A stretch of DNA of 33,912 bases. Source: Ignavibacteria bacterium (GTDB lineage Bacteria; Bacteroidota; Ignavibacteria; Kapaibacteriales; Kapaibacteriaceae). A model generated the notes under the pieces. It saw nothing but the letters and a program-made list of their open reading frames with translations. It made no database searches and was not told the DNA's origin. Location: positions 1-33,912 of the forward strand of contig CANHFG010000018.1 in the NCBI GenBank assembly GCA_947459875.1, in the 5' to 3' direction. This document shows positions 7,457 through 22,928 of the stretch, piece by piece (the stretch's first letter is position 1; every line of letters starts with the position of its first letter). The position numbers and the translations under genes were made by a program.

Positions 7457-8074
7457 TCAGCGCCGCATGTATCCGTCGTTGCGGATGATGCGCTGGATAT
7501 TCTCGGCCTTTATGATCGACGGGAGCATGTCGTTGAGGTGCCCGTCTAGCATGCGCAGACGCGCCGCCTCGGAGGGCGTCTCGAGCAACCCCTGCTTCTG
7601 CTGCACAGACAATCCGGCCTTCGGAGCCAGCTCAAACGAGGGTGTGTCCGTGAGCTGATCGGCAGTAAAGGTAGGCGCACCGATGCCATAGACGAGCGTA
7701 ACGATGCGATTGTATCGCTCAATCACGGACTCGAGAAGGGGCGCACCGAAAGCCCCCTGCTCATCAGGGAAGTCCTCGACGGTGCCTACGGCAAAGGGCA
7801 TCTCCGACGAGACCAGTTCGAGAAGTCGATATCTCCGGGTGCCTTCGATGACAATATCCAGGCGACCGTCCGGATAGCGCTTGACCTCCTCGACCACCGT
7901 GGCGGCACAGCCGACCGGGTGCAGGTGACCGTCCTCGACAAGATTGATGCCAAACTCCAAACCCCGCTCAAGGCACCCGTTGATGAGGGCCTTGTAGCGG
8001 GGTTCGAAAATGTGTAGCGGCAGCCTGACGTGTGGAAACAGCACCAGGTTCAGCGGGAACAGCCCGAGCGTCAC
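7457..8074 (-). CDS. LON peptidase substrate-binding-domain protein
   Basis: The 205-residue product matches the N-terminal substrate-binding domain of Lon (PF02190) as a stand-alone protein. The diagnostic start is LFPLNLVLFPHVRLPLHIFEPRY, quoted here only as the LPLHIFEPRY core; a GTRRYRLLEL segment and a helical C-terminal half follow. It has no AAA+ or Ser-Lys protease domain. Such proteins are widespread and their role is poorly defined; an adaptor or chaperone-like function has been proposed. The start codon is GTG at 8074, forming a GTGA overlap with the superoxide dismutase stop, so translation is probably coupled. It is the last gene of the long suf unit. The family call is strong. 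Confidence 0.85.
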   Translation of the reverse strand: MTLGLFPLNLVLFPHVRLPLHIFEPRYKALINGCLERGLEFGINLVEDGHLHPVGCAATVVEEVKRYPDGRLDIVIEGTRRYRLLELVSSEMPFAVGTVEDFPDEQGAFGAPLLESVIERYNRIVTLVYGIGAPTFTADQLTDTPSFELAPKAGLSVQQKQGLLETPSEAARLRMLDGHLNDMLPSIIKAENIQRIIRNDGYMRR

Positions 8075-8697
8075 CGCGCGTGCGCCAGATACCGTTCGTT
8101 GATACGTTCCCAGTGGAGATTATTCAGGAATGCATCGATGTATCCCGCGCGGCCCGGACCGCTCTTATGATAGTAGGCATGTTCGAAAACGTCGCAACTG
8201 ATAAGCGGAATACCGCCCCAGATCGCCCCATAGTGGTGCTCGTCCACCAGCACATTGAGAAGACGTCCGGAATAAAGCGAGTCGATGCAAAGTACGCCCC
8301 ATCCTGAAAGCTTAGCTGCCAATGCTGAGGCTTTGAAGTCGGCCTTCCAAGCGTCGAAAGATCCGAATTCGCTCTCGATGGCAGCAAGAACTTCCGGACC
8401 CTTTGATGGATCACCATCGCCGCCCATGACTTCCCAGTAGACATCATGCAGCACGGTGCCAGCGTGATTCCACGTAAACCGGCGCTTGAGTTCACCAACC
8501 TCGCTCCAGTTGCCGTTGGCCGCCGAGCGGTCTGCACCGGCAAGCGCAGATTCGATCTTGTTGAGGAATGTCACGTATCCTTTGTGGTGCGTGTTGTAGT
8601 GCCAGTCGGTGGTCTCGGGCGAGATCACGTCCTTGAGCAGCTCCTTCGCCTCGTCGTCGCTGTATGGACGAGGATTGAATTTCCATTCGTAGGCCAT
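8071..8697 (-). CDS. Superoxide dismutase, Fe/Mn family, archaeal-like motifs
   Basis: The enzyme dismutates superoxide to oxygen and peroxide. I chose ATG 8697 (208 aa): a GAGG site lies about 8 bases upstream, and the longer in-frame extension is low-complexity. Metal ligands are His33, His84, Asp169 and His173, with gateway Tyr41. The usual D-x-W-EHAYY is D-V-F-EHAYY here. The HHKGYV motif and a His near 154-155, where bacterial Mn forms have Gln, resemble archaeal SODs (family knowledge from memory). Gly80, where Fe types have Gln, argues against a classic Fe-SOD; the metal is undetermined. No signal peptide is seen, so it is cytosolic. It follows the A-type carrier by 46 bases. Confidence 0.9.
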   Translation of the reverse strand: MAYEWKFNPRPYSDDEAKELLKDVISPETTDWHYNTHHKGYVTFLNKIESALAGADRSAANGNWSEVGELKRRFTWNHAGTVLHDVYWEVMGGDGDPSKGPEVLAAIESEFGSFDAWKADFKASALAAKLSGWGVLCIDSLYSGRLLNVLVDEHHYGAIWGGIPLISCDVFEHAYYHKSGPGRAGYIDAFLNNLHWERINERYLAHAR

Positions 8698-8743
8698 GTA
8701 TACCTCGGTAGGTGTTGGTGGGTAGAGTCGTAGGTAGGAAAGA

Positions 8744-9142
8744 TCAGACGCCGAAGCTGCTGCCGCAGCCGCAGGTCTTGGTGGCATTCGGATTATTGAA
8801 TGTGAAGCCCTTGCCCATGAGGCCGTCGCTGAAGTCCAGCGTCATCCCCATCAGATAGAACATGCTCTTGGCATCAATAAACACGCGCACACCGTCGGCA
8901 TCCAGCACGAGGTCGTTTTCCTTGGCAGCTGCGTCAAAGCCGAGCGTATAGGACATGCCCGAGCAGCCCCCTCCCTTGACGCCGAGACGCAGGCCGTAGT
9001 CGTCTGCGATAGAGTTCTGCTGCTTGATCTTCTTGACCTCGCTGATGGCCTTTGATGTGATGATGATGTTGTCGTGCTCATCCGTACCGGTCACTCCGGT
9101 TGGGATCGACACGACGTCGTCGCCGATCATGGTGACGCTCAT
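8744..9142 (-). CDS. A-type iron-sulfur carrier (IscA/SufA/ErpA family)
   Basis: A-type carriers receive Fe-S clusters from a scaffold and pass them to apo-proteins. ATG 9142 (132 aa) was chosen because it has a strong GGAGG site close upstream and forms an ATGA overlap with the rrf2 stop. The three cluster ligands are present: Cys60 in GGGCSG, then Cys124 and Cys126 in TCGCGSSF. The body (TSKAISEVKKI, MGMTLDFSDGLMGKGF) is canonical HesB/YadR/YfhF. An N-terminal extension of about 25 residues is longer than usual. I cannot separate SufA from ErpA by sequence alone; the suf operon setting favours a SufA-like role. Confidence 0.92.
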   Translation of the reverse strand: MSVTMIGDDVVSIPTGVTGTDEHDNIIITSKAISEVKKIKQQNSIADDYGLRLGVKGGGCSGMSYTLGFDAAAKENDLVLDADGVRVFIDAKSMFYLMGMTLDFSDGLMGKGFTFNNPNATKTCGCGSSFGV

Positions 9143-9573
9143 AGAACCTCCAGTTGAACGAGTTCGCGAGGAGCTGCCAGCTCGGCAATGCTCATCGATT
9201 TGAATGTTGATTGAATACGCTCCTGCAGTCGACCAAGGGGCTCCTTGATCGTACACACATGCTCTGCGCTGCATGATGAATGGTCGGTGCTCTGACAGTC
9301 CACCAGAGCCTGACCTGCCCCTTCCATGACCTCGATGATCTCCGCTACGCTGATGCTTCCGGCAGCACGCGCAAGCGTGTATCCACCGGTGGATCCGGCA
9401 AACGAACGAATCAGTCCATGACGCGCAAGCTGCTGCAGCACCTTGGCCACGAGTGCCTGCGAGATGTCATAATGCGACGCAACGTCTTTGGCCGAGACAA
9501 TGCTGTCGGGCCTTGCGGCCATATCCTGCATTGCCAGCAAGGCATACTCGATGCGTTTGGAGAGTCGAACCAT
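9139..9573 (-). CDS. Rrf2-family transcriptional regulator, probable Fe-S-sensing suf regulator
   Basis: Rrf2 proteins such as IscR and SufR-like regulators use an N-terminal winged helix and a cysteine-ligated cluster. The N-terminus (RLSKRIEYALLAM) and the GSTGGYTLAR wing are characteristic. Cys93, Cys101 and Cys107 would bind a cluster; the spacing is C-x7-C-x5-C, against C-x5-C-x5-C in IscR. A C-terminal helix (RLQERIQSTF) would dimerise. The gene lies after the ferredoxin (6-base gap) and overlaps the carrier gene by ATGA. It therefore sits inside the operon it probably controls rather than at its head. The likely operator is at 16279-16291. The target assignment is inference. Confidence 0.88.
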   Translation of the reverse strand: MVRLSKRIEYALLAMQDMAARPDSIVSAKDVASHYDISQALVAKVLQQLARHGLIRSFAGSTGGYTLARAAGSISVAEIIEVMEGAGQALVDCQSTDHSSCSAEHVCTIKEPLGRLQERIQSTFKSMSIAELAAPRELVQLEVL

Positions 9574-9579
9574 GAGATC

Positions 9580-9888
9580 TTACTGATCGTAATCGGCAAA
9601 ACAGTCGTCCGACGTCGGATGCGCCTGACAGGTGAGAATATACCCGTCGGCGATCTCGTCGTCCGACAGGGCTTCGCGCTCATCCATGATGGCGGTGCCC
9701 GAGACCAGACGCGCACGGCACGTGCAACAGGCGCCGATCTGACATGCATACGGAGGATCAAGGTTGGCACGCTGAGCCGCCGCGAGAATAGTCTCGTCCG
9801 GCTCGACGCTGAACTCGTGATCCTGACCATAGAGACGCACCTTAACGCGTCGTGTAATGAGTTGAGAAGTCTGTTCCATGTGCTCCAT
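9580..9888 (-). CDS. [2Fe-2S] ferredoxin, plant/PaaE-tail type
   Basis: This 102-residue one-electron carrier has the plant-type ligand pattern C49-x4-C54-x2-C57 with Cys87 about 30 residues later, plus an extra Cys55. The fold markers DETILAAAQ, PPYACQ and GYILTCQAHP are those of the C-terminal domain of PaaE-like oxygenase reductases. It begins (ATG 9888, alternative ATG 9879) one codon after the stop of the upstream reductase gene, in the same reading frame. The two together have the order of a full PaaE-type reductase. In this operon it could donate electrons to Fe-S assembly, as Fdx does for the ISC system; that is inference. The ferredoxin call itself is firm. Confidence 0.9.
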   Translation of the reverse strand: MEHMEQTSQLITRRVKVRLYGQDHEFSVEPDETILAAAQRANLDPPYACQIGACCTCRARLVSGTAIMDEREALSDDEIADGYILTCQAHPTSDDCFADYDQ

Positions 9889-9891
9889 CAG

Positions 9892-10680
9892 TTACGGTGT
9901 TGGCGTTGGCCGTGGGGTTGACGAAAAAGATTCAATGTGAATGTGTTCTGCAGGCACCGCAATGATACCAAGGGCGGCGTTCACCATCTCGAGAAAGCCC
10001 GGTGGACCGCACAGGGCGTACTCGGCGGTCTTGTTGCCGCTGCGATGTCGCTCAACGAGCTCCATCACATCGGTCGCAGCTAGACGTCCGCCGCGCACCT
10101 CGGCAAAATCAGCAAGCGTGGCATCAGCCCCCTCTTCGAGAAGGATCACAACACGCAGACGCTCACCGTGCTCGCCATGAAGCCTGCGCAGCTCATCGGC
10201 AAACATCGTATCGGCGGCCGATACGTTGGCGTAGAAAAGCTCGACGGTGCTGAGGGGTTCTGCTACCAGTACCGAGGTGGCAATTGCAAGCAGAGGTGTG
10301 ATGCCGCTGCCAGCGGCAAACAAGGCCACGCAACGCGAGGATTCCGGATGCAGGTCGATGGTGAACGACCCCTGCGGCGGGCTTACCAGGATGGTTGTGC
10401 CCGGTTGCAGAAGCGACTGGATAAAGGGCGCCGATCGCGACGTATCGCTGCGCTTTACGGCAATGGTAAGGGGCTGCCCTGCCTCGGGACTCGAGCACAG
10501 CGAAAACGCGTGTTCTTGCCAGACGCCATCAAGCTCCACATGAAGCGCGACGTATTGTCCGGCTCGATGCACGAAGGTCTGCCTGAGGTGATCCGGAACA
10601 CGGAACTCAGCAACACGTGCTCGTGGCGTGGTGTCCCACGCGCGCTCGATCACCAGCGGATGGTAAGCGCTCGACGACAT
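9892..10680 (-). CDS. FAD/NAD(P)-binding oxidoreductase, PaaE-like reductase domains without fused ferredoxin
   Basis: The 262-residue protein has the two domains of ferredoxin-NADP reductase-like enzymes: an FAD barrel (residues 1-110) and a pyridine-nucleotide domain (115-250). Visible motifs are GQYVAL, GSGITPLLA at 124-132 and CGPPGF at 224-229. The flavin motif normally R-x-Y-S is His57-Ala-Phe59-Ser60 here, so two usual flavin contacts are changed. The tail ends in a Thr/Pro-rich linker and TAA. ATG 10680 forms a TGATG overlap with sufT; a TTG at 10683 is possible but less likely. It probably moves electrons from NAD(P)H to the adjacent ferredoxin. A role in aromatic-ring oxygenation is unlikely, since no oxygenase genes are present. 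Confidence 0.85.
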   Translation of the reverse strand: MSSSAYHPLVIERAWDTTPRARVAEFRVPDHLRQTFVHRAGQYVALHVELDGVWQEHAFSLCSSPEAGQPLTIAVKRSDTSRSAPFIQSLLQPGTTILVSPPQGSFTIDLHPESSRCVALFAAGSGITPLLAIATSVLVAEPLSTVELFYANVSAADTMFADELRRLHGEHGERLRVVILLEEGADATLADFAEVRGGRLAATDVMELVERHRSGNKTAEYALCGPPGFLEMVNAALGIIAVPAEHIHIESFSSTPRPTPTP

Positions 10681-11036
10681 CAATAGAGTCCAATGGAAAA
10701 CAGGGCAGCATCCGACATCATCGTCTTATCCCATGGCGGATCGAACGTGAGCTCAAGCTGCACCGACTCAACACCCTCGACGCTGCGCGAGACCTGTTCG
10801 ACCTCTCTTGGAAGAGACTGCGCCGAGGGACAGTTTGGCGTGGTCAGGGTCATGGTGATGAAGACCTTTGTCTGGTCTTCAACGCGCACCTCGTAGATCA
10901 GACCAAGCTCGTAGATGTTGATCGGTATCTCCGGATCAAAAACGGTCTTGATCGCGTCGATCACCCGTTCACGCAGGTCTGGCATCGGCTGCGCGGCCGC
11001 TGCTGTCGTCGGTGTATCTGCTGGCGTATCGATCAT
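10680..11036 (-). CDS. sufT: SufT / MIP18-family (DUF59) Fe-S maturation factor
   Basis: The 118-residue product carries the DUF59 core: DPEIPINIYELGLIY, then TLTTPNCPSAQSLP with the family Cys, and a C-terminal DPPWDKTMMS segment. SufT-like proteins assist Fe-S protein maturation and are often encoded in suf operons; the same family includes PaaD. An Ala/Thr/Pro-rich N-terminus of about 17 residues precedes the domain. ATG 11036 forms an ATGA overlap with sufE, and its stop overlaps the reductase start by one base, so it is tightly coupled on both sides. The suf neighbours favour SufT over PaaD. Confidence 0.88.
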   Translation of the reverse strand: MIDTPADTPTTAAAAQPMPDLRERVIDAIKTVFDPEIPINIYELGLIYEVRVEDQTKVFITMTLTTPNCPSAQSLPREVEQVSRSVEGVESVQLELTFDPPWDKTMMSDAALFSIGLY

Positions 11037-11472
11037 GACGACGTCCTCAAACTGAGTGCAACAGCATAAAGGCGGATCTGCTTGAGCATGCTCGTGAGTC
11101 CGCTTGATCTGTTCTGTGAAAGATGCTGGGCAAGCCCCAGGCGCTCGGGGATGTCCTTCGGCGCTTCAAGGATCTCCTGCGGCGTCCGGTCCTGCATGAT
11201 GCGGATCACGAGTGCCACAAGCCCCTTGACAATGAGAGCATCACTGTCGGCATCAAAGTGTATGCGTCCGTCGACCATCTGCGCGTGCAGCCAGACGCGT
11301 GACTGGCACCCTTTGATAAGCAGATCATCACGCCGATGCTCTTCGGGGAAGGGAGCAAGTAGCTTGCCGGTTTCCATGATCGCACCGAAGCGTTCCTCCC
11401 AGTCCGGAAGAGATGCAAGTGACTGACCGATCTGGTCGGCGACTTCAAGGATCGTACCTGATGCAGTCGAGA

Positions 11473-11476
<4 letters not shown>
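11033..11476 (-). CDS. sufE: Cysteine desulfuration protein SufE
   Basis: SufE accepts persulfide sulfur from SufS on one cysteine and hands it to the SufBCD scaffold. The acceptor Cys lies in the IKGCQSRVWL motif, and the VKGLVALVIRI and LAQHLSQNRSSGL segments match the family, as does the 147-residue length. ATG 11476 was chosen because it makes an ATGA overlap with the sufS stop, the junction style used along this operon. ATG 11491, five codons earlier, cannot be excluded. It acts in the cytosol with the adjacent SufS. Confidence 0.93.
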
Positions 11477-12719
<1,243 letters not shown>

Positions 12720-12723
<4 letters not shown>

Positions 12724-14057
12724 GCCAGAATACTCTCGGCTGAAAGTCGGCGCGCGATGCGCCGCATGACAAGTTCGCGCAGTCCCTCAAGGGATATCTT
12801 CTCGGCTACTTCCGAGACAAACGCGTATGTCAGGAGTGCCTTGGCTGTTGCCTCGTCGATCCCACGGGAACGGAAGTAGAAGATGGCTTCATCGTCGACC
12901 TGTCCCATGGTAGCCCCATGAGAACACTTGACGTCGTCGGCCCAGATCTCCAGCTGCGGTTTAGCCTGCACCTGCGCCTTTGAGCTTAGCAGCAACGTAT
13001 GGTTTGACTGATAAGCTGTTGTCTTCTGCGCCTGCGGGCGCACGTAGATCTTGCCGTTGAAGACGCCGGTAGAGCTTCCGTCATAGATGCCCTTGTAGAG
13101 CTCTTCGCTGTGGCAATGCGGTACCATATGGTCCACAACCGTGTGATTGTCCGTGTACTCGCTCTGCGCAAGGAGGCTCACGCCGTACAAAAAGCCCTGA
13201 CTCGATGGTTCACACAGTCGAATGGCCAGATCGTTTCGGACGAATCGTCCGCCGATACTCAGGGCGTGCGAGGTGAACGTTGCGTCACGGTGCACGTCCG
13301 CCGTGACCGATGAGATCGAGCGGCTCGCATCCGAATCATCGGCGATCTTGTAGTAGCGGATGTGTGCAGTAGCCGCAATGCTCGCCTCGACGACCGTTAC
13401 GTCAAGCACCGTTGCGCCACCGGATGTGTGACTGGAGTGGATGATGTCGGCCTCAGCCCCCTCTTCGGCAATGATCAACAAGCGCGGAGCGATAAGTGTC
13501 GATGCGTTGGCCGTCGTCTCCACAGAAAGGTGTATAGGCAGCTCACACTGCACACCCTTGCGAAGTCGAATCACGATGCCCGACTCAAGAAGTGCGGTGT
13601 TCAGAGCCACAAAGGGGTGCGAGCCGATCGGCGCGCCGGAACCAAGAGTGCGGGCTACATCCTTATCGTTCTCGACGATATCGGACGTCAGCTCGAGAAT
13701 GTCAACTCCGTCAGGTACATTCGTCAGGTTTGCCTCAACGACGCCGTCGACGATACGAATGCTGATATGCTGACCCAGTGCAGAGGCGACCTCTGTCATC
13801 GAGGTGCGTGCGTCGGTAGACGCCGCTCGTTCACTCCATCGGACCGGTGCATAGGAATAGTCGAGTCCGATGAACGGGAAGAGATTTGTGTACTTCCATT
13901 CCTCGTGACGCGTTGTCGGGATGCCCATTCGGACGAATTCCCTCAGACCCTCCCGACGCAGAGCGTCGAGACGTCCGTCGGATGACTCCACGTCGCCAGA
14001 GACGACGTGTGCTGGCACCAGACGCTGGGCTAGTTCGACAAGTGGATGGGTTGACAT
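12720..14057 (-). CDS. sufD: Fe-S cluster assembly protein SufD
   Basis: SufD pairs with SufB and the SufC ATPase as the Fe-S assembly scaffold. The 445-residue product has the RHEEWKYTNL N-terminal motif, a central right-handed beta-helix region, and the C-terminal core CSHGATMGQVDDEAIFYFRSRGI, cited here by its CSHGAT and FYFRSRGI parts, which is diagnostic. The conserved His of CSHGAT is retained. ATG 14057 abuts the sufC stop, and the 3' end overlaps sufS by four bases. The gene order B-C-D-S-E is the usual one. I see nothing unusual in it. Confidence 0.95.
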
Positions 14058-14821
<764 letters not shown>

Positions 14822-14825
<4 letters not shown>

Positions 14826-16264
14826 CCGACGCTTCCTTCGAGTGAGATTGCTAGGAGTTTCTGGGCTTCCACGGCGAATTCCATGGGAAGCTGATTGAGC
14901 ACTTCACGTGCGTAGCCGTTGACGATCAGCGCCACAGCGGCCTCGGTGTCAATGCCACGCTGATTGCAGTAGAACAGCATATCCTCACCGATCTTCGAGG
15001 TTGTGGCTTCATGCTCGACCGTGGCCGTGGAGTTGGCAACTTCCAGGTACGGGAACGTGTGTGCGCCGCAGGCATCGCCGATCAGCAATGAATCGCATTG
15101 CGAGAAGTTACGTGCCCCCTGCGCCACCGGTAGCACCTTGACGAGACCGCGGTAGGAGTTCTGCGAAACACCGGCCGAGATGCCCTTGGAGACGATGCGC
15201 GAGCGCGTGTTGCGCCCGATGTGGATCATCTTCGTGCCTGTGTCGGCCTGTTGCTTGTTGTTGGTCACGGCTACCGAATAGAATTCTCCGATCGAATTGT
15301 CGCCCTTGAGGATGACGCTCGGATACTTCCACGTGATGGCCGAGCCGGTCTCGACCTGTGTCCACGAGATCTTACTGTCGACCCCGGCGCAGATCCCTCG
15401 CTTGGTAACGAAGTTGTAAATGCCGCCCTTACCGTCTTTGTCGCCCGGGAACCAGTTCTGCACGGTCGAATACTTGATCTCAGCGCGGTCATGTGCCACA
15501 AGTTCGACCACGGCGGCATGGAGCTGATTCTCATCTCGCTGCGGCGCGGTGCATCCCTCGAGATAGCTCACGTAGCTTCCCTCGTCGGCGATGATGAGGG
15601 TGCGCTCGAACTGCCCTGAATTACGAGCATTAATGCGGAAGTACGTGCTAAGCTCGATCGGACAGCGTACGCCTTTCGGAATGTAGACAAACGATCCGTC
15701 GCTAAAGACAGCAGAGTTCAGAGCCGCATAGAAATTGTCATTCGGTGGGACGACCGAGCCGATGTACTGGCGCACGAGTTCAGGATGACTTTCCAGGGCC
15801 TCACTGATCGGGCAGAAGATGATGCCAAGCTCGGCGAGCTTGTCCTGGAAGGTGGTCTTGACGCTGACCGAGTCGAACACCACGTCGACGGCAACTCCGG
15901 CCAGTACCTTCTGCTCCTCCAGAGGAATTCCGAGCTTTTCGAACGTAGCCAGCAATTCTGGATCGACCTCATCGATCGAGCTCAGCTCGGGTTTCTTCTT
16001 CGGTGCAGCCCAGTAGATGATGTCCTGAAAATCCACCGGCGGGTAGTCCACGTTGGGCCAGGTTGGCTCTTTCATGGTTTTCCATTGCTGATAGGCCTTC
16101 AAGCGCCATTCCAGCATCCATTCGGGCTCGTTCTTCCGAGCCGAAATGAAGCGCACGACGTCTTCACTGAGCCCCTTGGGGAGCAGTTCCTGCTCAATGT
16201 CGGAAGTGAATCCATATTTGTATTCACTCCCAACGACCTCATCGAGAAGTGTTTGTTGGTCCAT
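14822..16264 (-). CDS. sufB: Fe-S cluster assembly scaffold SufB
   Basis: SufB is the main scaffold on which clusters form. The product (480 aa from ATG 16264) is highly conserved: [47 protein letters not shown] with its cysteine pair, [11 protein letters not shown] and FYCNQRGID are all present, and the end [10 protein letters not shown] is canonical. ATG 16264 was preferred over an in-frame TTG at 16273. No Shine-Dalgarno sequence lies upstream. A -10-like box ends about 6 bases before the ATG, so the message may be leaderless. It is the first gene of the operon that extends to the LON-domain gene. Confidence 0.97.
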
Positions 16265-16269
16265 AGACG

Positions 16270-16291
16270 GCAATATACGACTAAATTAGTC
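16270..16291 (-). promoter_or_regulatory. suf operon promoter -10 with adjacent 13-bp palindromic operator
   Basis: On the plus strand 16279-16291 reads GACTAAATTAGTC, a perfect inverted repeat of two 6-base arms around one A. Directly downstream on the minus strand, 16277-16270 reads TATATTGC, the same octamer found upstream of nuoM. The palindrome thus fills the position between -10 and -35, classic for a repressor. A second small inverted repeat, CCTA-GA-TAGG, abuts it at 16291-16300. Binding by the operon's Rrf2 protein is inference. Confidence 0.55.
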
Positions 16292-16327
16292 CTAGATAGG
16301 TGTGCAGATGTGGAGCGAATACGAAAC

Positions 16328-16365
16328 CGCCCCCTTGGAACGTCGGAAAACAGACCAAGGGGGCG
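16328..16365 (-). terminator. Hairpin terminator of the downstream SBBP gene, before the suf promoter
   Basis: Arms 16328-16338 (CGCCCCCTTGG) and 16355-16365 (CCAAGGGGGCG) form a perfect 11-bp stem with a 16-base loop, 39 bases past the stop of the gene ending at 16404. The following minus-strand sequence is GTTTCGT, only a weak T-run. A smaller CCCGC/GCGGG hairpin lies between (16373-16386). It would shield the suf promoter from read-through. Confidence 0.55.
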
Positions 16366-16403
16366 CTTTGTTCCCGCTAACGCGGGAGAGGTTTCTCGGG
16401 ATA

Positions 16404-19400
16404 TCAGCGGGCGATCACGACTCTCGTGCGAGCAAGCGTTGCTCCATCGGTAAACTCAAGAGTATACATGCCGGGTGCCAGCATGTCGGTCTTGAGGCGG
16501 ATGTCGCCCGAGCGTCCGATGTTCTCAGCCCCCTGCATGGTAAGGCGAGCACCGCGCATATCGATGAACGTAAAATGCGCGCCCTGACGCGGTGTTTCGT
16601 TAAGATTCAGGCGCACGGTCAGATCACCGTCGGCAGGTACGGGGCCAAGTACGCGCAGCATTGCACTGTCATCCGACTCTTCGTCCACCGACGTGCCGCC
16701 CATGACCACGACCGTTGCCGGCGTGCTTGTTACGGTTCCGCATCCACCGGTGACAGCGCAGGTGTACTGACCATCGTTGGATTTGGCAGCAGCCGACACG
16801 GTGTACTCGGCAGCCGTTGCGCCGGGAATATCGGTTCCCGACTTGCTCCACTGGTAGGTAAGCGTCGACCCCGTGGCAGCCACTGACAGAGTGAATGGCT
16901 TACCCTCATCAACCGTAAGACCCTGCGGCTGGCGGCTAATGACAGTCGGCGTTCCGATCAGCACATTGGCCATGGATGACGTCACACTCGGGTTGCACGT
17001 GCCGCTGACCAGGCAGTCGTACTTGCCGGCCGTCGATGCGTCGACCGACGCAATCGTGTAGGTGGCTTCCGTCGCACCGGCGATGTTCACGCCCGCCCTA
17101 CGCCATTGATACTTTACTCCGGCACCATCGGCGGTAACAGAAAGCGTCACCGGCTTTCCACCGCAGGCAGAGGCATCAGCCGGCTGCTTGGTGATCGATG
17201 GTGGACTGGAGATCGTGAAGGGGGTGAGCAGCTCGCTCACGTGACCGTGGATGGTGGTCACACGCACGACGTACTGCCCTGTCGGGAGCGCCGGTACCTT
17301 CCACAGGTAACTGCGACCGCCCACATTCTTGGCTACATCCGTCCAGACGTTCGAACCATACGCCGAGTACTGCAACTGGAAACGCGCCGTATCGGCAAAA
17401 CCGGCAGCCGACCACGAGATCGGCTTGCTGATTCCGACGCAGTAGATCTCGCCCCCTGCCGGAGCAGTCACCTCAACAACGCCGAACGCATGCTTGGCAA
17501 CGTATCCGTGGAGTCCATCGGAGGCTCCGGAGGCAGATTTTGGATACGTCAGAAGGTTCTTCGAGGTTGTACTTGCGACGTAGTAAGGATTGCCGAGGGG
17601 GTCAAGCGCAAGGCAGCGAACGGTGTCGTTTCCGTTGCCGCTGACCAGCGTAGCGTAGATGTTCGTGGCCGTGTTGATGGTCGCGATGAACCCGTCGGTG
17701 TCGCCCGCGCGCGACGAGACAATTCCGGCACCCTCGAGCGGGAAGTTCTCCGAATTGGTCGTTCCGGCCATCATGACGGTTGTGCCGGAGATCAACCGCA
17801 CGGCATGTGCTTCGTCGTCGCCTGTGCCGCCATAGTATGTCGTTCCGGCAAGTTCACGTCCGTCGTCAGCATAGAACGAGAGGAAAATGTCCTTTTTACC
17901 GATCCGCTGCGTGTTGAGAGTGCCAACGGCCGGCAGATTAGCCGACGTGGTCCAGCCGACGATGTAGGCGCGTCCAAGGTCGTCGACCACAATGTCTTTT
18001 CCTTCCTCGTCTCCATCACCGCCGAAATACGTTGAATATGTTCCGTCGTCAGTGCTGGCAAGCGTCAGGTCGCGGCTAAGCTTCACGACAAACGCGTCCG
18101 TGTAGCCGCCGTTGAAGGTCTCGTCGGCCGGCTTCCGTCCCGATGCAAATCGGTCGGACGTCGGAGCCGTTTCGAAATTCGATGAGGTGGTCGAACCGGT
18201 CATGTAGACGCTGTTCGATCGATCAAGAGCCATGGCATTGAAAATGTCGTGACCCGTTCCACCAAAGAAGCGTGACAGAAGAAGCGAACCATTTGCAGAA
18301 AAGGACGCTACAAAGCCGTCGGTCTGACCCTGATTGGCTCCACCGCCCGGAACGTCGCGGAATGTAGGTGGCCTGCCCCAACCGCCCGGGATGCTGATCC
18401 TGACCGTGGCCGGGAAAGTGACCGGGAAGTTGGTGGTCGATGTTGTGCTGCCGGCAACGAACATCACCCCTTCCTGGTCGACCTTGATCGCACGGCCGAT
18501 GTCGTCCTTGTTCCCGCCATGATAGAACCCAACGATGAGCTTGGTAAGCGTCGAGTCGAACTTTGCTACAAAGGCATCCGACAGGGCCTTGTAGAGCTTG
18601 CCGGTAACGCCCGATGTCGTCGGGAAATCCGAAGAACCGGTCTCACCGGTCACATACACATTGTTGTTCTTGTCCTTGGTCAGCGAATAGATCCGGTCAT
18701 CGGCTCCCCCACCAATGAAGGTGTATGACAGGACCTTCTCCAGACGCGTGTCCAAGCGCGCCAGAAAGCCGTCGAGCTTACCCTTGATGGATGTGCTGTA
18801 GCCCCCTGTGGCACCCGGAACAGCGAGCTCCGAAGTCGTACCGGCAACCACGATGGTTCCATTGGAGAGATACTCGACGCCGACGAGCTCGTCATCACCG
18901 GGTCCACCGACAAACGAGCCGTAGACGGTCGACGTCGGCGGCGTAACATCAGCAACTTCATTCTTTGCGCCGCCAAGCAGGTCATGACGCAAAAGCGATA
19001 CGTCAGCACCAGCCTTGAGAATGATCTCGCGGCGGACGCGGCCATCAGCACCGCGGCTGAAGGCAAATGTCACCCCGGGGTAGTACTCCTCCAATGCTAC
19101 ATCTGACACTACCGGTGCTGTTACCCACTGACTAGGCTGATTGCCAAGCGCAAAAGTCACCATGCTGATGGTGGCCCCCGACTTGAGGTTGAATGCAGGG
19201 CTCATGAAACGGAATCCCTCACGCGTGACATTTCCGATGCGCTTCTGCTCGGCTCTGACAAGCGAATACTGGTCGACCACGACGCCCGTGCGCGTGACCC
19301 ACACATCGGCACCGTTCTGCCGGGCGGCACAGAGGACTTCGGCAGGCCACTGACCGACGTTTACTATGAAGCCCTGCACCTGCGTCTGTGCGGCTTCTAT

Positions 19401-19487
19401 GGTGGAGGCCAGCACTGCGTTGCCGGCAAATGTCATGACAAAGACTGCCGCGATCAGGCGCAGAAAACGCCCGTAATATGCTTGCAT
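16404..19487 (-). CDS. SBBP-repeat beta-propeller surface protein with Ig-like domains and T9SS-type C-terminus (copy A)
   Basis: ATG 19487 (1027 aa) starts a signal peptide of about 27 residues ending in VLA; longer in-frame starts would bury it. An N-terminal domain with the NVGQWP motif (DUF7948-like) follows. Then come seven SBBP blades, each marked by a GG-x-x-x-D-type loop (for example GGPGDDE, GGNKDDI, GGTGHDI, GGDGDEE) and a strand ending in GTT or GET. Next is a module with ISWSA resembling Kre9/KNH, then two Ig-like domains (YQWRRAG and YQWSKSG). The last 80 or so residues look like a T9SS sorting domain ending in VVIAR. Predicted location is the cell surface; substrate and role are unknown. 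Copy B lies directly upstream. Confidence 0.85.
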   Translation of the reverse strand: MQAYYGRFLRLIAAVFVMTFAGNAVLASTIEAAQTQVQGFIVNVGQWPAEVLCAARQNGADVWVTRTGVVVDQYSLVRAEQKRIGNVTREGFRFMSPAFNLKSGATISMVTFALGNQPSQWVTAPVVSDVALEEYYPGVTFAFSRGADGRVRREIILKAGADVSLLRHDLLGGAKNEVADVTPPTSTVYGSFVGGPGDDELVGVEYLSNGTIVVAGTTSELAVPGATGGYSTSIKGKLDGFLARLDTRLEKVLSYTFIGGGADDRIYSLTKDKNNNVYVTGETGSSDFPTTSGVTGKLYKALSDAFVAKFDSTLTKLIVGFYHGGNKDDIGRAIKVDQEGVMFVAGSTTSTTNFPVTFPATVRISIPGGWGRPPTFRDVPGGGANQGQTDGFVASFSANGSLLLSRFFGGTGHDIFNAMALDRSNSVYMTGSTTSSNFETAPTSDRFASGRKPADETFNGGYTDAFVVKLSRDLTLASTDDGTYSTYFGGDGDEEGKDIVVDDLGRAYIVGWTTSANLPAVGTLNTQRIGKKDIFLSFYADDGRELAGTTYYGGTGDDEAHAVRLISGTTVMMAGTTNSENFPLEGAGIVSSRAGDTDGFIATINTATNIYATLVSGNGNDTVRCLALDPLGNPYYVASTTSKNLLTYPKSASGASDGLHGYVAKHAFGVVEVTAPAGGEIYCVGISKPISWSAAGFADTARFQLQYSAYGSNVWTDVAKNVGGRSYLWKVPALPTGQYVVRVTTIHGHVSELLTPFTISSPPSITKQPADASACGGKPVTLSVTADGAGVKYQWRRAGVNIAGATEATYTIASVDASTAGKYDCLVSGTCNPSVTSSMANVLIGTPTVISRQPQGLTVDEGKPFTLSVAATGSTLTYQWSKSGTDIPGATAAEYTVSAAAKSNDGQYTCAVTGGCGTVTSTPATVVVMGGTSVDEESDDSAMLRVLGPVPADGDLTVRLNLNETPRQGAHFTFIDMRGARLTMQGAENIGRSGDIRLKTDMLAPGMYTLEFTDGATLARTRVVIAR

Positions 19488-19580
19488 GAAGGGTGTCCCA
19501 GATGAGGAAACTGATGCTTGGTCGACCCCGAAGAACAGCACACGAGGGAAAATGTTACGAGCGGATAACGAAAAACTGAA

Positions 19581-19610
19581 AAGGTCCCGCAACAAATGCT
19601 GCGGGACCTT
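19581..19610 (-). terminator. Rho-independent terminator of SBBP copy B
   Basis: Arms 19581-19590 and 19601-19610 (AAGGTCCCGC / GCGGGACCTT) form a perfect 10-bp stem with a 10-base loop, 35 bases past the stop at 19645. On the minus strand it is followed by TTTTCAGTTTTT, a good U-tract. It separates the two tandem paralogs into different transcripts. Confidence 0.8.
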
Positions 19611-19644: not shown

Positions 19645-22600
19645 TTAGCGCACCACCTGGATACGTAGCGTCCATGTTGTGGCTCCGGCCGCGATCTTCA
19701 ACAGATGCGTTCCGGACTGACACTCCGTGGTCGGAATGTGCATGTCGTGCGTTCCCTGTGCAAGCATACCGGCGTTAAGACGGGCAACCAATCGACCCTG
19801 AAGGTCGATCAGCGAGGCTGTCACCTCAGATGCAACCGGCAGTTCAAAGCGCACATGCGCCATGTCTGCTACGGGGTGGCTACCGACCAGGCGAAGCGAG
19901 CCGATGGCGAGGACCTCTTCATCAACTGACGTCGTCGTCACTGCAACGATGGCCTTTTCGGAGGTGACCGTTCCACAGCCCCCTTCAACGCGGCAGGTAT
20001 ACTCTCCCTCGTCAGCCTTGGATGCCGACGCAACAGTATAGTCGGCGGAGGTAGCCCCCGTGATCGGCGCTCCGTTGCGAAGCCATTGATATGCGAGATT
20101 CGAACCTGTGGCAGCTACCGACAGCGTGAATGGTCTGCCAGCATCGACCGCAACACCGGACGGCTGCCTGCTGATAGCCGTAGCCACGGCCGTTGTGACA
20201 TTGACAGCAGCAGACGTTGCATTCGGCGCGCAGGTTCCGGTGATCACGCAATCATACCGGCCAAGAGCGGCCGCATCAAGGGCAGGGATCACGAGTGTGT
20301 CGGCTGTTGCACCGGCGATGTTGTTACCACCTCGGCGCCACTGATACTTCAGTCCTGCACCCTCGGCCACAACACGAAGCACCAGACGTCCACCAAGGCA
20401 TGCGCTGGCATCCTTGGGTTGTTCCTTGATCGAAGGTGGATTGGAGATAGTAAATGGCGTCAGCAGGCGACTCATGTGACCACGTGACGTTGTGATGCGC
20501 ATCTGGTACAGACCTGTCGGAACGTTCGGGACCTTCCACGAGAAGCTGCGTCCGAGAGCCGTGCGCGTCAGCACAGTCCAGTTGCTGGAACCTGCAGGGG
20601 CGAGCTCGATAGAATACTTTGTCGAGTCTGGCAGTACTTGGGCCGACCAGCTAATGGCACGGTTCGAACCGGCACACCAGACCTCATCGCCGCTCGGGAC
20701 GGTGAGCTCAACAGTTCCGATCGCATACTTGCCGACATAGGCATTTGAGCCCCCTACTGCGCCTTGGGCTGCGCTGTCCGGGAGCCGAAGATTGTCCGAC
20801 GTTGTTGATGTCACGTAATACAGATCGCCAACGGGGTCGACCGACAGCGCAACCACAGTATCGGCATCGGAGCCACCGAGGAGAGTCGTGTAGGAGTTAG
20901 TGGACGTATTCATGAGTGTGATGAATCCGTCCGTTGGGCCGATGCGTTCGTTGCTCGCTCCATCGCCGGCAACGGGGAAGTCCCCTGACTGTGTAGCTCC
21001 GCAAAGCACGGCAAGACGAGACACGGAATTGAAGCGGACACTCCTGACGTCATCCTTACCTGTGCCGCCAAAGTAGGTTGCTCCCGTGAGATTTCGTCCG
21101 TCATCAGGAAACACAGCCAGAAAGATATCCTGGTCTCCGATGGGCTGCGTTACCAGTGTACCGATGGTCTCGAGGTTGGTCGACTTGGTCACTCCCACAA
21201 CTTGCGCGCGCCCGATCTCATCGACGAAAATGCCACGCCCCTCTTCGTCGCCATTCCCGCCGAAGAACGTCGAGTATGTTCCGTCATCGGACTTGGCCAG
21301 CTGGAGCTCATTGTTCATCTTCACCACAAAAGCATCGGTCGTGCCGCCGTTGAACGTCCGGTCATACGGAAGACGACCCGATGAGAAGAACCCCGGCGTG
21401 GGTGATGTCTCAAAGTCCGGCGACGTTGTCGAACCGGTGAAATAGACGCTGTTGGATCCGTCGATACACATCGCCGTCACGCGGTCGATGCCGCTGCGTC
21501 CGAAGTACCGGCTCTGTTGCATCGAACCGTTAACCGAAAAGAAGGCCAGGAAGATGTCGACGACACCCTGATTGGATCCGCCGCCGGGCTCGGTGAACGT
21601 CCGACCGCGCCAGTCACGTCGCGTGATGGTGACCGGAAATGTTATCGGCAGATTCGTCGTTGAATTCGTGTTGCCGGCAAGGAAGATGACGCCGTTCTGA
21701 TCAACGGCAATGGCAACGCCGATGTCATCCTTGTTTCCGCCATGGTAACCGCTGATCTGCAGCCTGGTGAGCGTACTGTCAAACTTCGCGATGTAGGCGT
21801 CGATGCCGGCCTTGTAAAGCTGGCCGGATGCTCCAGACGTCACGGGAAGATCGGCAGACGACGTCTCGCCGGTGATGTAGATGCTGTTTGCCTTGTCACG
21901 CACGAGCGAATTGATACGGTCTTCTCCGTTGCCACCGTAAAAGCTGTACGAAAGCACACGCTGGAGCTTCCGGTCGAGACGCACGAGATAGCCGTCGCTA
22001 ACCCCCTTGAGTGACGTCGAGTATCCGCCCGTAACGCCCGGGTAGGACAGGCTGGATGTCGTACCACCGATCACGACCTCCCCATTGGACAGGTACTCGA
22101 TACCGGCCACCTGGTCATCAGACGGACCACCCACATACGAGGCGTAGACGATCGACGAGGTCGGCGAGACGATCGCGCGCGGCGATCCGCCGTCAGCCGA
22201 CGGTTCCACAACAACACTGGCAGCGGATGGACTCACGCCCTGGTCAAGAATGAAGTGCTGCTCAAGCCCCCTGCCAACGGCGCGATACTCAACGCTCACC
22301 CCGGGTGCGGCATCACGGATCACGACCGATCGATAGACCGGCGCAGCAAACCACTGCGATGAGTTCCGCCCAAGAAAGAAACTGACCGTTGAGACCTGCT
22401 CGGATGCAACCACCGTTACCGCTTGCCCGGCGTTGAGCAGACGCCGCGACTCGACGCGTCCGTTGCGCATACCGGCGGCACGATCAGTTGTATAGGTATC
22501 GACCTCTGTTCCATAGCGCGTAACCCAGACGTTCTGTCCGTTCGAGCGATAGGCATACAGTACATGCGAGGGCCATTGTCCGACATTGCCAATGAGCCCA

Positions 22601-22737
22601 TCGATAGATGCCGATGGCGCGGAGGCCACGGACGTCGCTGGGGTCTTCTGACTGTAAAGGTCGCCCGTAGCACAACACCATACGAGCGTAGCAAGGAGGA
22701 AAAACTGCATTGGATAAGCCATCAGCTTGTTGAACAT
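19645..22737 (-). CDS. SBBP-repeat beta-propeller surface protein with Ig-like domains and T9SS-type C-terminus (copy B)
   Basis: This is a full-length paralog of copy A with the same order: signal peptide, NVGQWP domain, seven blades, ISWSA module, two Ig-like domains, sorting-type tail ending in VVR. By eye the blade region matches copy A at well over half of positions. ATG 22737 (1030 aa) gives a plausible signal peptide ending near LYSQ; ATGs at 22722 and 22710 are alternatives, and no start has a good ribosome site. Blade 4 has lost the paired glycine (FGRSGID), and blade 7 is GGSDADT. It is divergent from pdxJ across a 191-base gap and ends at its own terminator. Function unknown. Confidence 0.85.
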   Translation of the reverse strand: MFNKLMAYPMQFFLLATLVWCCATGDLYSQKTPATSVASAPSASIDGLIGNVGQWPSHVLYAYRSNGQNVWVTRYGTEVDTYTTDRAAGMRNGRVESRRLLNAGQAVTVVASEQVSTVSFFLGRNSSQWFAAPVYRSVVIRDAAPGVSVEYRAVGRGLEQHFILDQGVSPSAASVVVEPSADGGSPRAIVSPTSSIVYASYVGGPSDDQVAGIEYLSNGEVVIGGTTSSLSYPGVTGGYSTSLKGVSDGYLVRLDRKLQRVLSYSFYGGNGEDRINSLVRDKANSIYITGETSSADLPVTSGASGQLYKAGIDAYIAKFDSTLTRLQISGYHGGNKDDIGVAIAVDQNGVIFLAGNTNSTTNLPITFPVTITRRDWRGRTFTEPGGGSNQGVVDIFLAFFSVNGSMQQSRYFGRSGIDRVTAMCIDGSNSVYFTGSTTSPDFETSPTPGFFSSGRLPYDRTFNGGTTDAFVVKMNNELQLAKSDDGTYSTFFGGNGDEEGRGIFVDEIGRAQVVGVTKSTNLETIGTLVTQPIGDQDIFLAVFPDDGRNLTGATYFGGTGKDDVRSVRFNSVSRLAVLCGATQSGDFPVAGDGASNERIGPTDGFITLMNTSTNSYTTLLGGSDADTVVALSVDPVGDLYYVTSTTSDNLRLPDSAAQGAVGGSNAYVGKYAIGTVELTVPSGDEVWCAGSNRAISWSAQVLPDSTKYSIELAPAGSSNWTVLTRTALGRSFSWKVPNVPTGLYQMRITTSRGHMSRLLTPFTISNPPSIKEQPKDASACLGGRLVLRVVAEGAGLKYQWRRGGNNIAGATADTLVIPALDAAALGRYDCVITGTCAPNATSAAVNVTTAVATAISRQPSGVAVDAGRPFTLSVAATGSNLAYQWLRNGAPITGATSADYTVASASKADEGEYTCRVEGGCGTVTSEKAIVAVTTTSVDEEVLAIGSLRLVGSHPVADMAHVRFELPVASEVTASLIDLQGRLVARLNAGMLAQGTHDMHIPTTECQSGTHLLKIAAGATTWTLRIQVVR

Positions 22738-22750
22738 GATTGCGAACGAA

Positions 22751-22762
22751 CCGGCAAGCCGG
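22751..22762. other. Inverted repeat in the 5' leader of SBBP copy B
   Basis: CCGGC-AA-GCCGG lies 14 bases upstream of ATG 22737, where a ribosome site would be expected. It could form a small mRNA hairpin affecting initiation or mean that a later ATG is used. The rest of the 22738-22928 gap holds GC-rich partial repeats and an AT-rich stretch before pdxJ, and nothing else I can name. Confidence 0.3.
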
Positions 22763-22928
22763 CAGAGAATGACGCGTTGATGTACGTCCCATTGCCGCCG
22801 GCCGTACCTTTGCAGGCCAGCGTTGGCCGGAGGCGAAAATAGCACAACACGGTTGTCGTCACGGGCGTTCACAACTTCAAACACCTAATCAAACGCGGCG
22901 TTTCCACTAAATTTTTCCCCACCCGGCC

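Follow-up and report, generated by a model that had tools for sequence, protein, structure and literature searches.

The closest described counterparts of the locus reported here come from regulators of the Rrf2 family and from the promoters of Bacteroidota. The type-1 operator of IscR has the consensus ATASYYGACTRWWWYAGTCRRSTAT, and site B of Pseudomonas aeruginosa is placed between the -35 and -10 elements by PMC6599224, which also lists C92, C98, C104 and H107 as the cluster ligands of IscR. For NsrR, PMC5411485 names Asp 8 as a ligand. Myxococcus xanthus RisR is described in PMC9973013 as an Rrf2 repressor that binds GAC-N7-GTC at the promoters of both isc and suf; Chlorobi are represented in its group, IS6. 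For Flavobacterium johnsoniae, PMC6847099 places the start of transcription 4 or 5 nt downstream of TAnnTTTG; 13% of predicted leaders in this species are given as 10 nt or less, while the figures reported for F. psychrophilum, with its -7 box variant TAnnTTGY, and for Bacteroides thetaiotaomicron are 5.5% leaderless and 3.7% below 10 nt, respectively. PMC5397173 states that a high leaderless fraction has been reported for Bacteroidetes, and a 2011 survey that recognised Pribnow-like signals only (PMC3160421) detected leaderless genes, at 2.4%, in one genome out of 37 from Bacteroidetes/Chlorobi. Among the matches listed in our literature search there was no operator study in this phylum and no study of leaderless genes in Kapaibacteria.

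The window analysed here, a whole stretch of 33,912 nucleotides from an Ignavibacteria bacterium, carries on its minus strand a suf operon in the order sufB-sufC-sufD-sufS-sufE-DUF59-ferredoxin reductase-ferredoxin-rrf2-sufA. Up to rrf2 the genes overlap or are separated by a few bases: sufB (14822-16264), sufC (14058-14825), sufD (12720-14057), sufS (11473-12723), sufE (11033-11491), a SUF-associated DUF59/SufT-like gene (10680-11036), a PaaE-like ferredoxin-reductase gene (9892-10683), a [2Fe-2S] ferredoxin-like gene (9580-9888) and rrf2 (9139-9573), which encodes the proposed repressor and lies in the same tightly packed operon as sufB, where the sequence-only reading had placed it. The span of the sufA/erpA-like carrier gene (8744-9115) is that of the piece searched, and its start is approximate. 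An Fe/Mn superoxide dismutase gene follows directly 3' of sufA on the minus strand (8071-8721) and perhaps belongs to the same transcript.

Immediately before sufB, whose ATG occupies 16264-16262, the minus strand reads CTAG-GACTAATTTAGTC-G-TATATTGC-CGTCT-ATG from 5' to 3'. The palindrome GACTAAATTAGTC (16279-16291) is perfectly symmetric over 13 bp, occurs as a single exact copy in the 2.40-Mb assembly, and is separated by one G (16278) from the -7/-10 box TATATTGC (16277-16270), identified by comparison with the Bacteroidota -7 consensus. The sequence-only reading had described such a palindrome against the -10 box and the absence of a Shine-Dalgarno sequence; the first is exact and no Shine-Dalgarno-like sequence precedes the ATG. 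It was right that the box lies close to the ATG, the gap being 5 bases (CGTCT) rather than about 6. In the register of an IscR type-1 site (A-N5-GACT-N5-AGTC-N5-T) the proposed operator has the palindrome as its core, spans 25 bp (16273-16297, minus strand) and overlaps the -7 box. A second inverted repeat, CCTA-GA-TAGG, does lie beside the palindrome as had been claimed (CCTAGATAGG, 16291-16300, with one base shared), but it is not conserved: among 28 correctly oriented sufB upstream regions (30 less L019 and L024, excluded for wrong orientation) it is intact in this genome only, with CCAATCTAGG at that position in the nearest relative, and it was therefore rejected as a second operator. Between the stop of the upstream gene (16404) and the promoter stands a strong hairpin (16310-16380, minus strand; -37.1 kcal/mol, z -5.5) with an 11-bp core stem at about 16328-16365, only about 50-60 nt from the sufB ATG. 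It is a probable terminator with a weak T-run, and a terminator scan picked up its inner part only. Two adjacent long reading frames upstream on the minus strand (16404-19595 and 19645-22884) have similar-looking translations, the former with SBBP beta-propeller repeats, Ig-like domains and a sub-threshold match to a Por secretion tail.

Perfect symmetry was rejected as evidence of function because such 13-mers are too common, with 16 perfect 6-1-6 palindromes in the window against a first-order Markov mean of 11.2 (range 3-17 in 50 runs). The features of the palindrome that stand above chance are its conservation and its position. These were assessed in this genome and 59 relatives, 23 genomes in the family and 37 elsewhere in the order, by scanning the 120 nt before the first suf gene (sufB, or rrf2 if ahead) for the closest match to GACT-N5-AGTC. 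At least seven of the eight bases matched in 23/23 family genomes and 31/36 other genomes of the order (G052, the 37th, was left out as its sufB start was not found), as against 2.3% and 3.2% of the respective shuffled controls; the site is thus present in 54 of 59 assessable genomes where about 1.7 would be expected. No such site occurred in 57 equal-length stretches at -250 to -131, a count that omits a 7/8 match at -142 in G010 which straddles the edge of the control stretch. Two genomes counted as positive (G024 and G047) look like chance matches, and the site is lacking within 120 nt in G040, G046, G055, G056 and G057, with degenerate sites (6/8) about 52 nt upstream in G055 and G056. The site precedes rrf2 where rrf2 leads the operon and sufB where sufB leads. 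Phylogenetic footprinting, which the sequence-only reading had proposed as a check, hence finds the palindrome kept across most of the order and tracking the first suf gene. A second site lies 21-28 nt before the rrf2 match in five genomes (G029, G030, G031, G036 and G044), the copy in G036 being weak; tandem operator palindromes before rrf2 were observed in four of them (loci L216, L197, L066 and L220 of G029, G030, G031 and G044). The pattern extended into the promoter, GACT-N5-AGTC-GTATATT, was matched with at most one mismatch in 34 of the 60 genomes, including 22/23 in the family (not G014); eight of the 42 matches lay away from suf genes, and a reversed control pattern gave 17 matches.

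Comparison with the IscR type-1 site is closest at the core. This site agrees with the core GACTRWWWYAGTC at 13/13 positions, and the 23 family sites at 10-13/13; over the full 25-mer consensus the figures are 19/25 here, 16-20 in the family and 14-21 in the other genomes. The outermost A(-6) and T(+18) are both present in 23/23 family sites and are each present in 28/30 other sites (G058 left out at a contig end, and the site nearer to the gene used in five two-site genomes), while most inner flank positions depart from the consensus. Since the right flank doubles as the -7 box in the family, only genomes outside the family give independent support on that side. Taken with the conservation across the order, the agreement at the core supports the Rrf2-type operator layout that had been predicted from the sequence.

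The protein encoded by rrf2 is spanned by an Rrf2 domain (PF02082, 118.1 bits against a cut-off of 30; TIGR00738, 109.2 against 73.3). It thus exceeds the superfamily cut-off, with no equivalog model above cut-off; the regulator model suf_reg_Xantho (TIGR02944) reached 93.7 bits against 110.65 and the curated IscR model TIGR02010 only 66.6 against 207.55. Three cysteines (columns 93, 101 and 107) are invariant in 28/28 aligned relatives, the alignment covering 28 of 30 fetched loci (L094 and L100 were missed by the extraction pattern). A His at the position of the IscR ligand, three residues after the last Cys, was found in 0/28 of the aligned proteins; the residue after C-T-I, read by eye, is K or R in 27/28 rows and Q in 1/28. 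Glu9 likewise shows no variation; it lines up with a Glu of 6hsd (RsrR), the best PDB match, in which that residue is a cluster ligand. Because of this invariance and alignment, and because an Asp serves as a ligand in NsrR, a Glu cluster ligand is plausible in the present protein. More than one Rrf2 match occurs in 21/23 family genomes, and so the assignment of the operon's own Rrf2 as the cognate regulator derives from linkage. One genome, G020, has weak Rrf2 matches only, and its suf contig ends early.

We also looked for the site elsewhere. In a collection of one genome per species (genome_contigs; 84,980 species) the exact 22-mer GACTRWWNNAGTCGTATATTTG occurred at 10 loci, in a scan that cannot match TATATTGC-type sites such as the present one and from which records near this genome are possibly absent. 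Nine of these are Kapaibacteria/Ignavibacteria records, each with the start of a sufB or rrf2 frame no more than about 200 nt further downstream. The tenth is an Acidobacteriaceae metagenome-assembled genome, with the site at 63869-63890 and sufB about 0.1 kb downstream (a 73% identical match from residue 9, at 63995). The scan adds specificity more than new cases, since 8/9 genomes were already in the footprint. Within this genome GACTGAATTGGTCGTATATC (C15:5342-5361, equivalent to L033:1501-1520) precedes a lipoprotein-like gene with a sub-threshold match to DUF4856 (19.8 bits, cut-off 22.3). Nineteen related places were found and 16 examined; a site with at least 7/8 bases lies upstream in 8 of 15 assessable, the remaining one reading N. 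Other near matches in this genome were rejected as operators, being indistinguishable from chance (17 with up to three mismatches vs 22 for the reversed control), and only that at C15:5342 looks real. In L227, starting 32 bases upstream of the C15:5342 site, there is a perfect inverted repeat, TTTGGAC-AAA-GTCCAAA, possibly the site of another regulator; TTTGGAC-N3-GTCCAAA also stands upstream of the orthologue in G001, G009, G010 and G012.

At sufB the distance from the box to the ATG is held at 4-6 nt in all 11 genomes of the genus (4 nt in six, 5 in two and 6 in three) and the bases between them vary. The box is TATATTTG in 9/11 of these genomes, and the two with 5-nt spacing, this genome and G008, both have TATATTGC. 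Of the remaining 12 family genomes all but G014 were measured, and the box-to-ATG distance is 9 nt in two of these 11 and 23-52 nt in nine. As TATATTGC also fits the TAnnTTGY variant, the sigma factor involved is uncertain. The missing Shine-Dalgarno sequence is ordinary for this genome, where such motifs precede only 58 of 289 genes (15 in a control stretch); a 16S match that would give the anti-Shine-Dalgarno tail was not found in the assembly. Short spacing recurs beyond sufB. Across the 23 family genomes the pattern TAHHTTTG-N4-ATG has 556 occurrences, compared with 148 for N9, the one control spacing used, and 136 for the reversed N4 motif, and N4 exceeds N9 in 23/23; in 37 other genomes of the order N4 gives 1207 and N9 1594, with N4 larger in 5/37 and three ties. 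Stretches sampled from three genomes of the genus contain 56 boxes no more than 150 nt from an ATG; the distance is 3-6 nt for 20 of them and 7-14 nt for one, compared with 3-6 nt for 1/17 and 1/31 in two other families. Within the family the proportions are 3/13 in G012 and only 1/17 in G014. The short-spacing signal is therefore pronounced in the genus but patchy across the family. With a looser box, 15 genes of this genome have leaderless-type spacing; nine were compared with NCBIfam, and eight score above a cut-off (ThyX, GlmS, UppP, AccD, MtaB, MgtE, SerS and IMP dehydrogenase), the ninth having no match at the strict limit used. The start codons of GlmS and SerS are supported because both align to full-length models from residue 1. 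This excess at 3-6 nt in one Kapaibacteria family, housekeeping genes included, points to many leaderless mRNAs.

Our preferred reading, which we hold to be very probable, is that the operon's own Rrf2 represses suf with the palindrome as its operator, at a promoter whose close -7 box would probably start the mRNA at or next to the start codon. From the sequence, its conservation, the tracking of the first gene and the type-1 core we infer binding, cluster type and direction of control as follows. Rrf2 carrying a cluster on its three invariant cysteines would dimerise on 16273-16297. Bound there, it would occupy the spacer and reach into the -7 box, thereby keeping RNA polymerase out. When Fe-S clusters are short, the apo form would release the site and sufBCDSE...rrf2-sufA would be transcribed, giving negative feedback on the operon, rrf2 included. 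Weighing against this reading are the five order genomes that lack a site and the two chance-like positives, the matches away from suf genes and in the reversed control, the several Rrf2 matches per genome, the weak ones of G020, the missing ligand His, the divergent inner flanks and a -7 box that reads TATATTGC here instead of TATATTTG. That the symmetry is a functionless accident is hardly credible; the abundance of such 13-mers in the window favours it, and the presence of the site in 54/59 genomes contradicts it. Binding of the palindrome by another regulator, Fur-like or an Rrf2 paralogue encoded elsewhere in the genome, seems distinctly improbable. A weaker Rrf2 homologue does occur in this and most family genomes, and PMC9973013 describes repeated recruitment of Rrf2 regulators to Fe-S operons. 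However, the site precedes rrf2 itself where rrf2 leads, and a known Rrf2-family operator has the same core and 25-bp span.

In the genus of this genome, the 5' end of sufB mRNA probably coincides with the start codon or lies no more than two bases from it (in this genome, leaderless or with a 1-nt leader), a position we infer from the spacing in 11/11 genomes, the upstream hairpin and the family-wide excess of short spacing. The leaderless start that the sequence-only reading had raised as a possibility is supported on this comparative basis. The site could instead be an operator on a sufB mRNA with an ordinary leader from a promoter further upstream, the close -7 box being unused, which we consider unlikely. 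The same box stands 9-52 nt from the ATG in other genera of the family, and there is one sigma-70-like match (16489-16461, minus strand; 1 vs 0.4 expected) inside the upstream gene; this match, however, lies upstream of the -37 kcal/mol hairpin, and an unused box sits poorly with a spacing held in every genus genome despite varying intervening bases and with the short spacings in excess across the family. With so strong a hairpin, only about 50-60 nt to the ATG and the spacing held, a start well upstream, which would have told against the leaderless start, is judged unlikely. It is also improbable that TAHHTTTG-N4-ATG serves translation as an upstream motif instead of marking a promoter with a leaderless start. 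Kozak-like upstream signals have been described in Bacteroidetes (PMC6847099), but what recurs here is the -7 element, at the F. johnsoniae transcription-start distance (4 or 5 nt), and a peak at 3-6 nt is absent for the reversed motif.

As a finding, the predicted Rrf2 operator at a suf promoter is real, though largely of a familiar kind; more unusual is the putative leaderless arrangement at sufB, which the comparison supports. We lean slightly towards the view that this family made leaderless starts common, including those of glmS, serS, accD, thyX and IMP dehydrogenase, and at sufB fused operator, promoter and translation start, so that Rrf2 would control a leaderless mRNA from one stretch of roughly 35 bp serving all three functions. 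Most of the other order genomes compared lack such an excess, and leaders prevail in the Bacteroidota that have been measured. For an uncultured lineage the locus defines a candidate operator and a candidate regulon of Fe-S assembly. If the leaderless signal is confirmed, the family would be a test ground for leaderless initiation by ribosomes that seldom use Shine-Dalgarno sequences, with the relatives that keep leaders as natural controls.

Set against the described systems, the locus has a particular mixture of features. With the Bacteroidota in which leaderless mRNAs have been mapped it shares the -7 box TAnnTTTG and few Shine-Dalgarno sequences; unlike there, where such mRNAs are rare, about a third of the recognisable near-ATG boxes in this genus have leaderless-type spacing. 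Among specific NCBIfam models the SUF regulator of Xanthomonas type (TIGR02944) is the best after the superfamily and matches over nearly the full length, although the protein scores below its cut-off. RisR is alike in its GAC-N7-GTC palindrome, a comparison made by operator core alone, and differs in that it controls both isc and suf, whereas the regulator gene here sits inside the suf operon. The IscR type-1 sites of the Escherichia coli and P. aeruginosa iscR promoters share with ours the core GACTRWWWYAGTC, the 25-bp span, the conserved end bases, the placement between -35 and -10 and an autoregulated Fe-S assembly operon, as described in PMC6599224, autoregulation being predicted in our case. 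The present site, by contrast, stands at suf and not isc, in a Bacteroidota-type promoter and with different inner flanks, and its regulator is far below the IscR cut-off and lacks the aligned ligand His. This suggests that an IscR type-1-like core has been kept by a non-IscR Rrf2 protein far from the Proteobacteria.
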